Shown here piece by piece: positions 42,771 to 48,337 of a stretch of 64,000 nucleotides of DNA. This DNA is from a bacterium. GTDB lineage: Bacteria; Sumerlaeota; Sumerlaeia; SLMS01; JAHLLQ01. The translations under genes and the position numbers were made by a program. The notes under the pieces were generated by a model, which was given only the letters and a program-made list of their open reading frames with translations, did not search any database and had not been told where the DNA came from. Within the stretch, counting starts at the first letter, position 1. Every line of letters starts with the position of its first letter. The DNA lies in contig JAHLLQ010000007.1 in the NCBI GenBank assembly GCA_020444065.1, positions 1 to 64,000 of the forward strand, given 5' to 3'.

Positions 42771-44465
42771 ATGATGACGCCATTTACGATCACCCCCCAG
42801 GTTGATGAAACTCAAGAGTTCATAGAAATCGCCAATGATTTCTCCAACCCTCTGGACTTGGTCAGAGAGGCCATAAGCAATTCGTATGATGCGGGCGCTT
42901 CCTGCATCAAGATCGCGTTCGATGTGGTAAACGAGTATGGAGAGTCTATTCTCAGAATAGCTCTGCTCGATGACGGCTCCGGGATGAACAAAGATACTCT
43001 GAAGAGTTTCTTTGACCTGGGCAACTCCAGCAGAAGAAGCGATAATGCTAGCATCGGTGAGAAGGGGCATGGGACCAAGGTGTACTTCAACAGCAGGAGA
43101 ATAGAAGTTGAAACATCCATGAATGGTGAGGAGGGTCTTCATGCAAGAATGGAGGAGCCGTTCAGGAAACTCTTTGATAGAAAGATTCCACAGGTCAGTG
43201 TAACACCCGAAAAGGGAATCCAAAAGGGAACCAAGATTACAATCTACGGCTACAACAACAATCGCCGAGACAGGTTTATACAGCCCATCCTAAAAGACCA
43301 CATACTCTGGTTTTCCAAGCACGGTTCTGTCGAAGACCAATTTGCGGAGAATCGGGCTCCAGTTAAGCTTGAGCTCAAAGGATTGGATCAAGAGAGTTAC
43401 GAGGAAATCTTGCAGGGACACCCCTTTCCCCCGGACAGCAAGAACATAAACAAACTCTTCGAGGAGCACCTGACAAGAGCTCCGAATTTTTATGCGAAGA
43501 AGATTGTCAAGACAGGATTCCTTCGGAATCACCCCGAAATACCCTTCCAGGCTGTCTTCTGTATCGAAGGGCGTAATGTCAAGTACGCCTATAATCCCAT
43601 GGTCAGGCGACAGGGGTATGCCGCTCCAGAAGGAGCCTACACCATTCAAGACAGATATGGGGTCTGGATATGCAAGGACTTCATGCCGATTCAACAAAAG
43701 AATGAGTGGATTATCTCCAAGGGCTCCGAGTATACAAAGCTCCACGCCTTCGTCAACTGCCAAGCACTGCGACTAACCGCCAACAGGGGCTCCGTAGACA
43801 ATACCCCATCGGAAGTCTTGAATGATCTGAGAGAAGAAGTGCGGAAGATCTACGAGAACATCATCAAGAGCGATGAGTGGCTTTCAATGGAGTGGCTGGA
43901 AGATGAAGCGGCAGCTTACCAGACCACGGAAAAAGAAGCCAAGAATTTCGAATGGAGGATCAAGAAGATAAACCGCGCCAATGTTGCTATGCATGGTGGT
44001 ATCCATCTGATTGAACCTGAACGAGAAAGCGGCGTCTTCTCCATATTCCTACTGCTCTCACAGGCAGAACCAGACCTCTTCCCGTTCTGCGTGGTTGACT
44101 ACGATACACATGAGGGGATCGATGTCATAGCGAAGGGGGACAACAACACGCCCATTGCCAGCGCGAAGCTCTTCTATGTTGAATTCAAAAGGACGCTATC
44201 CAAGGGCTTGAATCATTCATTCGCCAATATCCACACAATTGTCTGTTGGGAGACAGGAATCAAGCATGATGAAATAGTGAGTGACATCAATGGCGAAGAG
44301 CGCAAAATGCAAATAGCATCACCCTCAAAAGAGACAGACTATACCAAGTTCTTCCTGGACAATCCGACAAAAGCCCACAAGATCGAAGTCATCTGCCTGA
44401 GACAGTACTTGAAGGAAAGACTTGGTCTCGAATTCAAACCAAGGACGGCCGACGCTGTTATCTAG
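42771..44465 (+). CDS. GHKL (Bergerat-fold) ATPase with C-terminal nuclease-like region; candidate defence protein
   Basis: 564 residues, soluble. The N-terminal GHKL domain has all ATP motifs: REAISNSYDAG (32-42, with N37 for Mg), LLDDGSGM (65-72) and IGEKGHGTKVYF (95-106). This MutL/MORC/Hsp90-like set is followed by a middle domain (about 190-400). The C-terminal part (430-545) has THEGIDVIAKGD (D451) then YVEFKRTL (E471-F-K473) and FANIHTIVCWE, the D...ExK spacing of PD-(D/E)XK nucleases. Predicted bacterial MORC-like ATPases linked to restriction systems have this kind of layout. The gene is clearly more AT-rich than both neighbours, stands alone, and has GGAGA before its ATG. A DNA-acting immune protein is the best guess, unproven. 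Confidence 0.75.
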   Translation: MMTPFTITPQVDETQEFIEIANDFSNPLDLVREAISNSYDAGASCIKIAFDVVNEYGESILRIALLDDGSGMNKDTLKSFFDLGNSSRRSDNASIGEKGHGTKVYFNSRRIEVETSMNGEEGLHARMEEPFRKLFDRKIPQVSVTPEKGIQKGTKITIYGYNNNRRDRFIQPILKDHILWFSKHGSVEDQFAENRAPVKLELKGLDQESYEEILQGHPFPPDSKNINKLFEEHLTRAPNFYAKKIVKTGFLRNHPEIPFQAVFCIEGRNVKYAYNPMVRRQGYAAPEGAYTIQDRYGVWICKDFMPIQQKNEWIISKGSEYTKLHAFVNCQALRLTANRGSVDNTPSEVLNDLREEVRKIYENIIKSDEWLSMEWLEDEAAAYQTTEKEAKNFEWRIKKINRANVAMHGGIHLIEPERESGVFSIFLLLSQAEPDLFPFCVVDYDTHEGIDVIAKGDNNTPIASAKLFYVEFKRTLSKGLNHSFANIHTIVCWETGIKHDEIVSDINGEERKMQIASPSKETDYTKFFLDNPTKAHKIEVICLRQYLKERLGLEFKPRTADAVI

Positions 44466-44555
44466 CGTTTCCGGCATTCCCCTCTTCTTTCGGGAATTTG
44501 GATCAGTTGTACCGATGACTCAATGCGAATCCGCTGCGGGCCTCGGCTCGGCGAT

Positions 44556-44585
44556 TTGACAATCTTTTTACAATCTTTCTACGTT
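44556..44585 (+). promoter_or_regulatory. Possible sigma-70 promoter of the VWA-kinase-regulator operon
   Basis: TTGACA (44556-44561) is separated by 18 bases of T-rich spacer from TACGTT (44580-44585). The VWA gene starts at 44697, giving a leader of about 105 bases. Only the -35 box is consensus. Confidence 0.45.
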
Positions 44586-44696
44586 CGGCTGACCACATTG
44601 TCGGCGGGGTGTTGTCGAATGAGTGTGCGCGGTGGCGGATCGGTCTTGCTTGATTCCGCGGCGCCGCGCTTCATTCTCAGACGGAGGACCCGAAAG

Positions 44697-46061
44697 ATGA
44701 CTCCAAGGCGCAGTTTCCTGAATCCGATGTTGTGCATCATGGCGCTGCTGTTGTGCTCGCTGGCGACGGCGGCTGACAGAGCTCCTGCAAACGAGCCGGC
44801 GAAGATCGAGTTTACGATCAGCCCGGCGAACCCTGTCTTGCGATCCTGCCAGAGTCCGCAGATCGCGTACTTGAAGGTTGGACTGCGCGGCGAATCGAAG
44901 GCGCTGGAGGTCGAACGCGCGCCGGTGAATGTGGCGATTGTGCTGGATCGGTCTGGTTCGATGTCGGGCGAGAAGATTCAGCAGGCGCGCCAGGCGGCGA
45001 AGATGTTCGTCGATCGGCTCGGGCCAGAGGATATCGTTGCGATCGTGTCGTATTCGGACACGGTGGAAGTTGTTGTACCGGCGCAGCCGCTGAGAAATCC
45101 CGGTGCGGCGAAAGCAGCCATCAATGGAATTCGAAGCGGAGGCAATACGGCGCTGTTTGCCGGAGTCAGTCATGGCGCAGCGATGGTGCGCAGTCACTTG
45201 TCGGACGACCGCGTGAATCGTGTGTTGTTGTTGTCCGACGGTTTGGCAAATCAAGGTCCGTCGACGCCGCAGGAGCTGGGGCAATTGGGTGAAAGCCTGG
45301 CGATGGAAGGCATCACGGTTTCGACAATTGGGTTGGGTCTGGATTACAACGAGGACCTAATGAATTTGCTCGCCGCAAAGGGCGACGGTTCGCCAGCGTT
45401 TGCGCAGGAGCCGCAAGACCTGGCGAAGTTCTTCGATCGCGAGTTGCGCACGATCACCAATGTGATCGCGCAAGATGTGGATGTCACAGTTTCGTTCCCG
45501 GACGGTGTGCGGCCGATCCGTGTGCTGGGCGACCGCGGCAGTGTCGTTGATGGCGAGGTGCATTTCGGCGTCGCGGCGCTTTATCAGAATTGGGAAGATT
45601 CATTCGTCGTTGAGGTGGAACTCCCCGATACCGCGGTTGGCGCGGTGTTGCCGGTTGCGGCGGGCAGTGCCAACTGGCGCGATATGGCGACGGTGACGCG
45701 GCAGAACGCGAGCGCAAAGGCCTCGATCAAGTTCGCGGCGACCGAAGAGGATGTTGCGAAGGCGCTCGACGAAGACGCAATGGGCGCGGTCGTTGAGTTG
45801 CTTGCCTCTGAGAGAAGTCTGGAAGCCGTTCGACTGCGCGACCAGGGATTGATTGCGGAAGCGCGCGCGGCGATTCAGCAGAACATCGACTTTATTCAGC
45901 AGAATGCCGCGCAGATGCCGAGCCAGCAGGGGTTGACGGAGGAGTTGTTGAACTACAATCAGCAAGACATGCAGCAAATCGATCAGGACGAAGAATGGGG
46001 CGCATCCCGCAAGGAAATGAAGACTCGCTCGCAAGGCGATATCTGGCGCGTTAAGCAGTAA
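44697..46061 (+). CDS. Secreted VWA-domain protein
   Basis: 454 residues from the ATG at 44697, chosen because GGAGG lies eight to twelve bases upstream and a signal peptide starts there (MLCIMALLLCSLATAADRA); the frame is open to 44523. The VWA domain (about 70-260) has the metal site DRSGSMSG (DxSxS), NTALFAGV and LLSDGLANQGPS, so it should bind a protein partner through a divalent ion. A beta-rich part follows (FPDGVRPIRVLG...DSFVVEVELPD) and a Gln-rich helical tail. It resembles batA/TerD-free stand-alone VWA proteins with VIT-like parts. The histidine kinase starts 21 bases later. Confidence 0.85.
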   Translation: MTPRRSFLNPMLCIMALLLCSLATAADRAPANEPAKIEFTISPANPVLRSCQSPQIAYLKVGLRGESKALEVERAPVNVAIVLDRSGSMSGEKIQQARQAAKMFVDRLGPEDIVAIVSYSDTVEVVVPAQPLRNPGAAKAAINGIRSGGNTALFAGVSHGAAMVRSHLSDDRVNRVLLLSDGLANQGPSTPQELGQLGESLAMEGITVSTIGLGLDYNEDLMNLLAAKGDGSPAFAQEPQDLAKFFDRELRTITNVIAQDVDVTVSFPDGVRPIRVLGDRGSVVDGEVHFGVAALYQNWEDSFVVEVELPDTAVGAVLPVAAGSANWRDMATVTRQNASAKASIKFAATEEDVAKALDEDAMGAVVELLASERSLEAVRLRDQGLIAEARAAIQQNIDFIQQNAAQMPSQQGLTEELLNYNQQDMQQIDQDEEWGASRKEMKTRSQGDIWRVKQ

Positions 46062-46082
46062 GGAGACCTTGGACGATCATTC

Positions 46083-47630
46083 ATGAGAGCGCGCTTAGCC
46101 ATACTGCTTGTTGTTGTGATCGTCGGGCCGTTGATCGTGCTCGGACTTCTGGGAGTGCGCCTGGTGCAGGCCGAACGAATGGCCGTCCAGGCGCGCTTCC
46201 AGGAGTTGCTGAGCTCGCGTGTAATCGATGCGGCGTCGCGCATTCGTGATGCGGTCGAGCGGGAAACGGGCACTGTTGATGATGCGCTGTGGAGTTCGAA
46301 GAAAGCAGGGACGGAATTGGGGCATCCGCTGCTGTTGCAGCGATTCGAGTATGCGACGAACGGCCGAATGGTATTCCCGAATGTGTTTTTCGAAATGGAC
46401 GACGCAGCGCGGGACTATCTCGATTGGGCGTGGGAGACCATGCCGGCCGCGATGATGGCAAACGAGTCCGACGATGCAGGTGGTGCGTCGCAGTGGACGA
46501 CATTGCAGACGCGGACGGGCAAGAAGCTGGTGCGTTGGAGGCGAACGGAAGAGGGTTCTTTGGTTGGTGCGGAGGTGAACCGCACGGCATGGCTGGCGCG
46601 GTTGCTGGCGGATCTGCCAACGACGGGTGCACCGGAACGAGCGGCGGAGGATTGCTTTCGGCTTGTCGATGACGATGGGGCCTTGATCTACCAGTGGGGG
46701 CAGTTCTTGCCTGGCGACGGTACGTTGCCTGACGCGGGCGTGACTCTTGGGGCGCCGTTGAATGGGTGGCGGCTCGAGCTGTTTGTGCCGGCGGCGGCAT
46801 CGGGGCCACTCGCTGGAAGTACTCCGATGATTGTGTTTGGCGTTTTGATCGTGCTGGCGATCTTTCTGGGTGGGATTGGTGTCTGGTTAGCAACGGAGGT
46901 GCGTCGCGACTTGCGCGAGGCGTCGCAACGCGTTCGATTCGTGAGCCAGGTCTCGCATGAACTGAAAACCCCGCTGACCAACATTCGATTGTACGCGGAG
47001 TTGCTGGATGAATCGCTGGACGAAGATGCCGAGGATGATCGGAAGCGACTGGGCGTGATCGTTTCGGAGAGTCGGCGTTTGAGTCGTTTGATCGACAATG
47101 TGCTGACGTTCAGCCGCGAACGCCAGGGGCGTTTGAAGTTGCATGTTCGTGGGGGAGACGTGGCCGCAAAGGTGCACGAAGTCGTCGAGCAGTTCCGTCC
47201 TGCACTTGAAGCGGCTGGTGTAGAGGCGACGTTTGAATGCGAACTCGCAGCGGATGTCGAGACGTTGTTCGACCCGGATGGGCTGGAGCAGATTGTCGGC
47301 AACCTTCTGAGCAATGTGGAAAAGTATGCATCGGAAGGCGGGCGCGTCCTTGTGCATGTTGACAGAGAGAATGCGTTTGCCGTTTGTCGCGTATGCGATT
47401 CCGGGCCGGGCATTCCGGGGAGTGAACGCGAGCGTGTTTTCGCTCCATTTCATCGATTGGACAATCGACTGACGGCGCGCGCTTCGGGCGCGGGGTTGGG
47501 GTTGTCGCTGGCAAGAACGTTAGCGCGCGAAATGGGAGGCGAGTTGCAACTGGAACCACGAAGCGAGGCGGGCGCTTGCTTCATTCTCCGTCTTCCGATC
47601 AGCGAACAAGGAGGAAACGCGGAGCGATGA
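46083..47630 (+). CDS. Membrane sensor histidine kinase
   Basis: 515 residues. Two membrane helices (about 5-27 and 240-262) flank a periplasmic sensor domain of about 210 residues. Then come HisKA with the phospho-acceptor in VSQVSHELKTPLTNIRLY (about 292-309) and an ATPase domain with N box (NLLSNVEKYASEG), G1 (DSGPGIPGSE) and G2 (GAGLGLSLARTLA). No HAMP is evident. The stop overlaps the start of the response regulator (ATGA, 47627-47630), so this is a cognate pair. The upstream VWA protein is a likely signal source or output. Confidence 0.92.
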   Translation: MRARLAILLVVVIVGPLIVLGLLGVRLVQAERMAVQARFQELLSSRVIDAASRIRDAVERETGTVDDALWSSKKAGTELGHPLLLQRFEYATNGRMVFPNVFFEMDDAARDYLDWAWETMPAAMMANESDDAGGASQWTTLQTRTGKKLVRWRRTEEGSLVGAEVNRTAWLARLLADLPTTGAPERAAEDCFRLVDDDGALIYQWGQFLPGDGTLPDAGVTLGAPLNGWRLELFVPAAASGPLAGSTPMIVFGVLIVLAIFLGGIGVWLATEVRRDLREASQRVRFVSQVSHELKTPLTNIRLYAELLDESLDEDAEDDRKRLGVIVSESRRLSRLIDNVLTFSRERQGRLKLHVRGGDVAAKVHEVVEQFRPALEAAGVEATFECELAADVETLFDPDGLEQIVGNLLSNVEKYASEGGRVLVHVDRENAFAVCRVCDSGPGIPGSERERVFAPFHRLDNRLTARASGAGLGLSLARTLAREMGGELQLEPRSEAGACFILRLPISEQGGNAER

Positions 47631-48337
47631 AAGTTCTGATTGCCGAAGACGACACGTACATTCGCGAAGGGCTGGCGGAGATTCTGACGCGCGAGGGGTT
47701 CACTCCGTTGCATGCGCGGGATGGGCAGGAGGCCATCGAGGTGTGGACGAAGGAACGGCCAGACTTCGTTTGTCTCGATGTGATGATGCCGCACAAGAGC
47801 GGCTACTCCGTTTGTGAAGCGATTCGCGGAGATGATCCGGATGTACCCATCATCTTCATCAGTGCGAAGACGGAAGAGATCGATAAGGTTGTTGGTTTCG
47901 ATCGCGGTTGCGACGATTACATTACGAAGCCCTTCGGCGTGCGCGAGGTTGTTGCGCGAATTCGTGCGGTGACGCGGAGGGCTCTCGCGAATCAATCGCG
48001 AAATGCGGAGTCGACGAATCACCTTGAACTGGCGCCGTTCCGCATGGGCGACTTGGAAGTCCACCCGGCGGAACTACGAGCTGTGCGGGAAGGAGAGGCG
48101 GCGATCGACTTGTCGTTGAGGGAAGTGCGGTTGTTGGCGCTGTTCCACCGCAATGCAGGAAAGGCGTTGGATCGCTGGACGATTTTCAGTGACGTGTGGG
48201 GCGTTGATACAATTCCAAACAGTCGCACGCTGGATCAGACGATTTCGCAACTGCGCAAACGCATCGAGAAGGATGCGAAGAATCCGCAGATCATTCGTAC
48301 GGTTCACGGCGTTGGCTATCGGTGGGAAGGCGAGTAG
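47627..48337 (+). CDS. OmpR/PhoB-family response regulator
   Basis: 236 residues from the ATG at 47627 (MKVLIAEDDTYI), which overlaps the kinase stop; SD AAGGAGG and GGAG lie upstream. The receiver domain (1-120) has the acidic pair ED at 7-8, the phospho-Asp in CLDVMMP (about 53) and a C-terminal KPF. The winged-helix DNA-binding domain (about 140-235) has the LSLREVRLLALF and RTVHGVGYRWEGE signature. It is the transcriptional output of the VWA-kinase-regulator operon and converges on coaX six bases later. Confidence 0.95.
   Translation: MKVLIAEDDTYIREGLAEILTREGFTPLHARDGQEAIEVWTKERPDFVCLDVMMPHKSGYSVCEAIRGDDPDVPIIFISAKTEEIDKVVGFDRGCDDYITKPFGVREVVARIRAVTRRALANQSRNAESTNHLELAPFRMGDLEVHPAELRAVREGEAAIDLSLREVRLLALFHRNAGKALDRWTIFSDVWGVDTIPNSRTLDQTISQLRKRIEKDAKNPQIIRTVHGVGYRWEGE

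Follow-up and report, generated by a model that had tools for sequence, protein, structure and literature searches.

A GHKL ATPase with a nuclease-like C-terminal domain as a candidate single-gene defence effector

The gene at positions 42771..44465 (+ strand) of the window, the stretch of 64,000 nucleotides analysed here, encodes a protein of 564 aa (complete ORF) that combines a GHKL ATPase domain with a nuclease-like C-terminus. On balance, we lean towards a laterally transferred single-gene effector against phages or mobile elements, i.e. an ATP-gated nuclease that would work like VcSduA. The protein is composed of distinct domains with conserved residues, and its gene is mobile and has no fixed partner. 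The genomic contexts and the experimentally tested analogue VcSduA make a role in defence, as proposed in the initial annotation, plausible, but the window gene and several of its homologues are located among ordinary genes.

Gene and protein architecture

A GGAG sequence is located about 10 bases upstream of the gene start. Translation possibly starts at 42774, as homologues begin at the second Met. Judged by its sequence, the protein is a member of the GHKL ATPase superfamily: Residues 31-122 match Pfam HATPase_c_3 (PF13589) above the cut-off (1.4e-11), and the N, DxGxG and G-box motifs are conserved. In this respect, the initial annotation was right. The Pfam model HATPase_c remains just under its cut-off, and the GHKL segment retrieved MutL, MORC2 and MORC3 from the PDB in a profile search. 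The GHKL (Bergerat) domain comprises residues 24-166 (42840..43268; all features are on the + strand). It contains the N-box Asn N37 (ATP-Mg; 42879..42881), which is invariant in 14 aligned sequences, the G1 box D67-D-G-S-G71 (42969..42983) with invariant G69 and G71 and an N instead of D67 in one sequence, and the G2 box GEKGHGTK at residues 96-103 (43056..43079), in which G96, K98, G99, H100, G101 and K103 do not vary. An S5-like transducer region (residues ~200-345; 43368..43805) was indicated by Foldseek with the low-confidence full-length model (pLDDT 60.8). This weak model matched the N-terminal parts of Hsp90, TopoVI-B, MORC3 and MutL/PMS1, as is expected for a GHKL domain followed by an S5-like transducer. 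K302, invariant in the 14 sequences and present in the haloarchaeal relatives too, is a candidate ATP-contacting Lys. According to DSSP of the model, a helical linker (residues 347-402; 43809..43976) connects this part to the C-terminal domain.

The C-terminal domain

The candidate PD-(D/E)XK-like domain encompasses residues 404-564 (43980..44462) in the AlphaFold2 model. D451 lies in the context THEGIDVIAKGD, E471 and K473 in YVEFKRTL, and HTIVCWE follows at 488-494. Each motif quoted in the initial annotation, from N37, D67xGxG71 and GEKGHGTK to D451, ExK and HTIVCWE, was recovered at its residue. A D..ExK motif by itself is not significant because the pattern D-x(10-30)-[DE]xK occurs in 21 of the 37 proteins with 200 aa or more that the window encodes. 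Conservation of the E-D-ExK set across homologues says more than its presence. For this purpose, 14 sequences from several phyla were aligned: the window protein and L001-L008, L010 (Caballeronia plasmid copy), L024 and L025 (viral-contig copies) as well as the distant L037 and L043. The homologues are 26-72% identical to the window protein, and 73 of 564 positions are invariant. Among them are E415, E419, D443, D451, E471 and K473, unvarying in 14/14 sequences, and likewise N481, H482, F484 and C492. E419 (44025..44027), the candidate first E of the set, is found at the start of helix 1, D451 (44121..44123) at the start of strand 2 and E471-F-K473 (44181..44189) in strand 3. N481-H-S-F484 (44211..44222) is located between strands 3 and 4. 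This means that the acidic residue and the (D/E)xK motif of PD-(D/E)XK proteins have invariant counterparts in E419, D451, E471 and K473.

Loss of the D and ExK residues across homologues, named beforehand as an argument against a nuclease, was not found in the 14 aligned sequences, but the haloarchaeal relatives L011 and L012 have kept the D and lost ExK. L033 carries ExE in place of ExK, and L034 and L035 do not have such a C-terminal domain. The more divergent GHKL fusion L082 retains D and ExK when aligned by eye (GISIDAM..LEYKLAF..FNHPL..YIVCWE).

Structure prediction, recommended in the initial annotation with ATP and DNA and performed here with the C-terminal part of the protein, gave a divided answer. 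AlphaFold2 with residues 385-564 and 11 sequences yielded a confident model (pLDDT 90.5, pTM 0.85), although the five C-terminal models were uneven, with pLDDT values from 90.5 down to 70.7. The predicted order is helix 419-432 followed by strands 440-445, 451-455 (with D451), 468-476 (with E471 and K473) and 487-495. The canonical PD-(D/E)XK core has the order alpha-beta-beta-beta-alpha-beta with a helix between strands 3 and 4. The model agrees with it as far as strand 3; the helix between strands 3 and 4 was not seen. Foldseek searches with the C-terminal model against PDB and BFVD returned nothing significant and no nuclease. Because even this confident model found no nuclease, the PD-(D/E)XK fold is unproven. 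Similarly, comparison of the domain with Pfam, NCBIfam, PADLOC and PDB families gave no match.

The profile-profile comparison, also recommended there, yielded signals above the null at low probabilities. Local hhalign was performed with a 17-member family profile and a column-shuffle null of 150 shuffles. NOV_C scored 22.4 (null 11.0 +/- 2.0, 0/150; probability 4%) and SduA_C 17.9 (null 11.8 +/- 2.1, 1/150; probability 0.85%), and GID..ExK was in register with both families. Genuine segments from elsewhere in the protein reached at most 14.4 with NOV_C and 13.5 with SduA_C; with the C-terminal profile reversed, the scores were 13.5 and 14.3, respectively. The low absolute probabilities (1-4%) are not evidence against a relationship because NOV_C and SduA_C, two accepted PD-(D/E)XK families, score 17.9 with each other, a probability of 0.85% at the same depth. 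From these results, it is likely but unproven that the C-terminal domain is a nuclease. The invariant E-D-ExK set and the weak similarity to two PD-(D/E)XK families speak for this part of the initial annotation, whereas the missing library and Foldseek matches and the ExK loss in haloarchaea speak against it.

Distribution and lateral transfer

Acquisition by transfer, suggested earlier, is supported by the distribution of homologues. The nearest ones belong to other phyla (67-72% identity), and four genomes of the same family, the closest examined, do not contain the gene. Relatives at 55-72% were found in Exilibacterium, Marinobacterium, Chlorobaculum, Desulfaltia and Microscilla, in a Bacteroidetes MAG, a Zixiibacteriota MAG and UBP11 and on a Caballeronia plasmid. 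A search of 40 genomes of the phylum uncovered, beyond the window's own genome, only one relative with 27% identity (L037), and samples of about 400 genomes from two other phyla added no new relative in one phylum and a single one in the other. No homologue was detected in phage records, and further scans of viral contigs with divergent relatives as queries found nothing. These data support, at the level of sequence comparison, a rare, patchy and laterally transferred gene. The gene was also described as AT-richer than its neighbours. This holds for its overall GC content (47.9% vs 58.9 +/- 3.8% in the 36 other window ORFs of at least 200 aa), but GC3 deviates downwards by no more than about 1 SD. 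Beside the gene, only weak imperfect direct repeats and no tRNA were found as marks of insertion. An exact empty site was not recovered because the upstream genes differ among family-mates, which share the downstream block only.

Genomic neighbourhoods

The lack of an operon partner was confirmed: The upstream kinase gene is divergently oriented, and the downstream block is present without the GHKL gene in two same-family genomes. This conserved three-gene block (44523-48337) encodes a VWA-domain protein, a sensor histidine kinase and a response regulator. In most homologues, too, the gene stands alone, as initially claimed.

The survey of homologue neighbourhoods, another of the proposed checks, revealed plasmid, viral, prophage, defence and methylase settings for some copies, but ordinary or uninformative surroundings for the window gene, L002, L003, L005, L006 and L007. 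L008 has an HsdS gene nearby, and immediately upstream of L008 lie a candidate defence pair (PDC-M62A/B) and a gene with weak similarity to SIR2, a combination suggestive of a defence island. An N6/N4 DNA methylase gene is located 224 bp downstream of L004. L010 resides on a mobilizable plasmid with toxin-antitoxin, antirestriction and methylase genes within ~7 kb (methylase ~6 kb away). The annotation of the plasmid copies gives nothing more specific than 'ATP-binding protein'. On viral contigs, an integrase and an HTH gene adjoin L025, and L024 (L024:5965-7698; IMG/VR) sits between two tail genes. L043 is found at a prophage edge beside ERF and ArdC-like genes, and a reverse transcriptase of the group II intron type is encoded downstream of L001.

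Some observations concern individual copies. The position of L024 between phage tail genes is an unusual place for cargo. Two copies look broken: L008 (L008:7986-9688) has a premature stop or a frameshift around residue 27 and L006 (L006:4673-6364) an in-frame TAG near its end.

Comparison with known systems

MORC and paraMORC GHKL ATPases are found in restriction systems (Iyer et al., 2008, PMC2292703). Among them, paraMORC3 has a C-terminal E-D-ExK domain and is sometimes encoded stand-alone (PMC2292703). VcSduA, a GHKL-Shedu protein of the paraMORC3 type described in 2025, is a one-gene anti-phage system that requires both ATPase and nuclease residues: Either exchange, E27A in the ATPase or K557A in the nuclease, is enough to abolish defence (PMC12137116). 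The window protein resembles VcSduA/paraMORC3 (Shedu type I-D: GHKL plus DUF4263 PD-(D/E)XK) in being the product of a single, mobile and often stand-alone gene and in combining an N-terminal GHKL ATPase with a candidate C-terminal nuclease carrying an E-D-ExK set. It differs in that it does not have a DUF4263/SduA_C signal and contains NHSF and VCW motifs of its own. SduA_C (DUF4263, PF14082) was not matched in 11 homologues, in the C-terminal domains or in the window's genome. Membership in Shedu was rejected, since PF14082 did not match and the hhalign probability was ~1% with only the ExK strand aligned. With the paraMORC3-like L047, 126 GHKL columns align, whereas the middle and C-terminal parts do not. 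By its anatomy, the protein follows the same plan as VcSduA, yet it is not detectably of the same family and is thus set apart as a variant.

Other candidates were tried, too. MORC and paraMORC1-5 share the GHKL and S5 ATPase modules, the mobile restriction or defence settings and the frequent vicinity of helicases (here L035). Membership in prokaryotic MORC was rejected because the S5 motif GhXhhpXXRhl (PMC2292703) is absent; the equivalent stretch, GVWICKDFMPIQ at residues 297-308, has no R at the motif place. The likeness to the restriction enzymes BbrUII/HgiDII (NF050001) is confined to the GHKL segment (residues 24-166, E 2.5e-8), and membership was rejected: 32.9 bits vs a cut-off of 550, with nothing beyond the ATPase segment. 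With NOV_C/DUF3883 (PF13020), the G-x-D..ExK strand pair aligns above the null, but there is no hmmscan match and the remainder of the domain does not align. The family appears to have been neither named nor tested so far, with the paraMORC3-like L047 as the representative of the paraMORC subgroups in the sequence comparison.

A tentative extension of this comparison is that the protein might represent a one-protein immune family, so far without a name, whose GHKL clamp controls a nuclease distinct from Shedu, either a divergent PD-(D/E)XK branch or a new fold. In haloarchaea, the ATPase would have been re-used beside a TGT/DpdA-like gene after loss of the nuclease site. If this were true, fusion of GHKL ATPases with nuclease effectors would have occurred more than once and would have produced self-contained, methylase-free immune proteins. 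The effector half is covered by no PADLOC, Pfam or NCBIfam model among those searched. With this protein, it could be tested in a compact format how a clamp of the Hsp90/MutL type permits cutting.

Proposed mode of action and alternatives

In the reading we lean towards, the GHKL-S5 part would dimerise and close on ATP, probably around DNA or on a phage-derived trigger. Closure would then allow cleavage of nucleic acid by the fused C-terminal domain, whose putative active site consists of E419, D451, E471 and K473 plus a metal. Self-harm would be avoided by the ATP gate and the trigger requirement instead of a cognate methylase.

The same ATPase gate could serve abortive infection, with the C-terminal domain attacking host tRNA, rRNA or the chromosome to kill or stall the infected cell. 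This would fit a single gene with neither methylase nor immunity partner, its carriage by prophage-like and plasmid elements, and the GHKL-only relative L035, whose gene immediately precedes PsyrTA, a system of the toxin-antitoxin type. However, VcSduA, the closest tested analogue, protects at all MOIs with no apparent host loss (PMC12137116), and no RNase family matched the C-terminal domain. We regard abortive infection as rather unlikely.

Quite improbable is a component of restriction-modification or modification-dependent restriction with unlinked or variable partners, for which the presence or absence of a base modification would decide whether DNA is cut. It would agree with the weak GHKL match to BbrUII/HgiDII, the methylase genes near L004 and L010 and the haloarchaeal relatives, which abut a TGT/DpdA-like gene and in one case lie in a cluster that also encodes helicases and a DpdK-like PLD protein. 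On the other hand, there is no constant methylase partner, DpdA did not exceed its cut-off in the window's genome or in ten other homologue genomes, and it is precisely the TGT-linked forms of haloarchaea that do not have the C-terminal ExK. A DNA repair or housekeeping ATPase of the MutL/MORC type, to which the GHKL homology and the location of the window gene among conserved genes could point, is highly improbable for a rare, patchy, laterally transferred gene that is absent from the four closest genomes examined and found in plasmid and prophage settings elsewhere.

Divergent relatives

Four further observations concern other GHKL proteins. At L035:5989-10496, the gene for a GHKL relative lacking the C-terminal domain runs into the start of a PsyrT-like helicase gene, and a PsyrA-like DprA gene comes next; this locus is possibly a three-gene form of PsyrTA. 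On two haloarchaeal plasmids (L011:8946-11548 and L012:8932-11548), a TGT gene (TgtA/DpdA-like, below the cut-offs) adjoins an ExK-less GHKL relative. L012 additionally encodes a DpdK-like PLD protein as well as DEAD/DEAH helicases, which suggests a Dpd-type cluster for DNA modification in archaea that includes a GHKL partner. For bacteria, a Dpd link was rejected on account of the DpdA search described above. A Rhizobium plasmid (L050:2911-6316) encodes a GHKL ATPase and, directly downstream, a Shedu nuclease in two separate genes, a split version of the VcSduA fusion. Finally, a genome of the window's class (G018) encodes a GHKL-SduA_C protein of the paraMORC3/VcSduA-like type (L047:163-1992).
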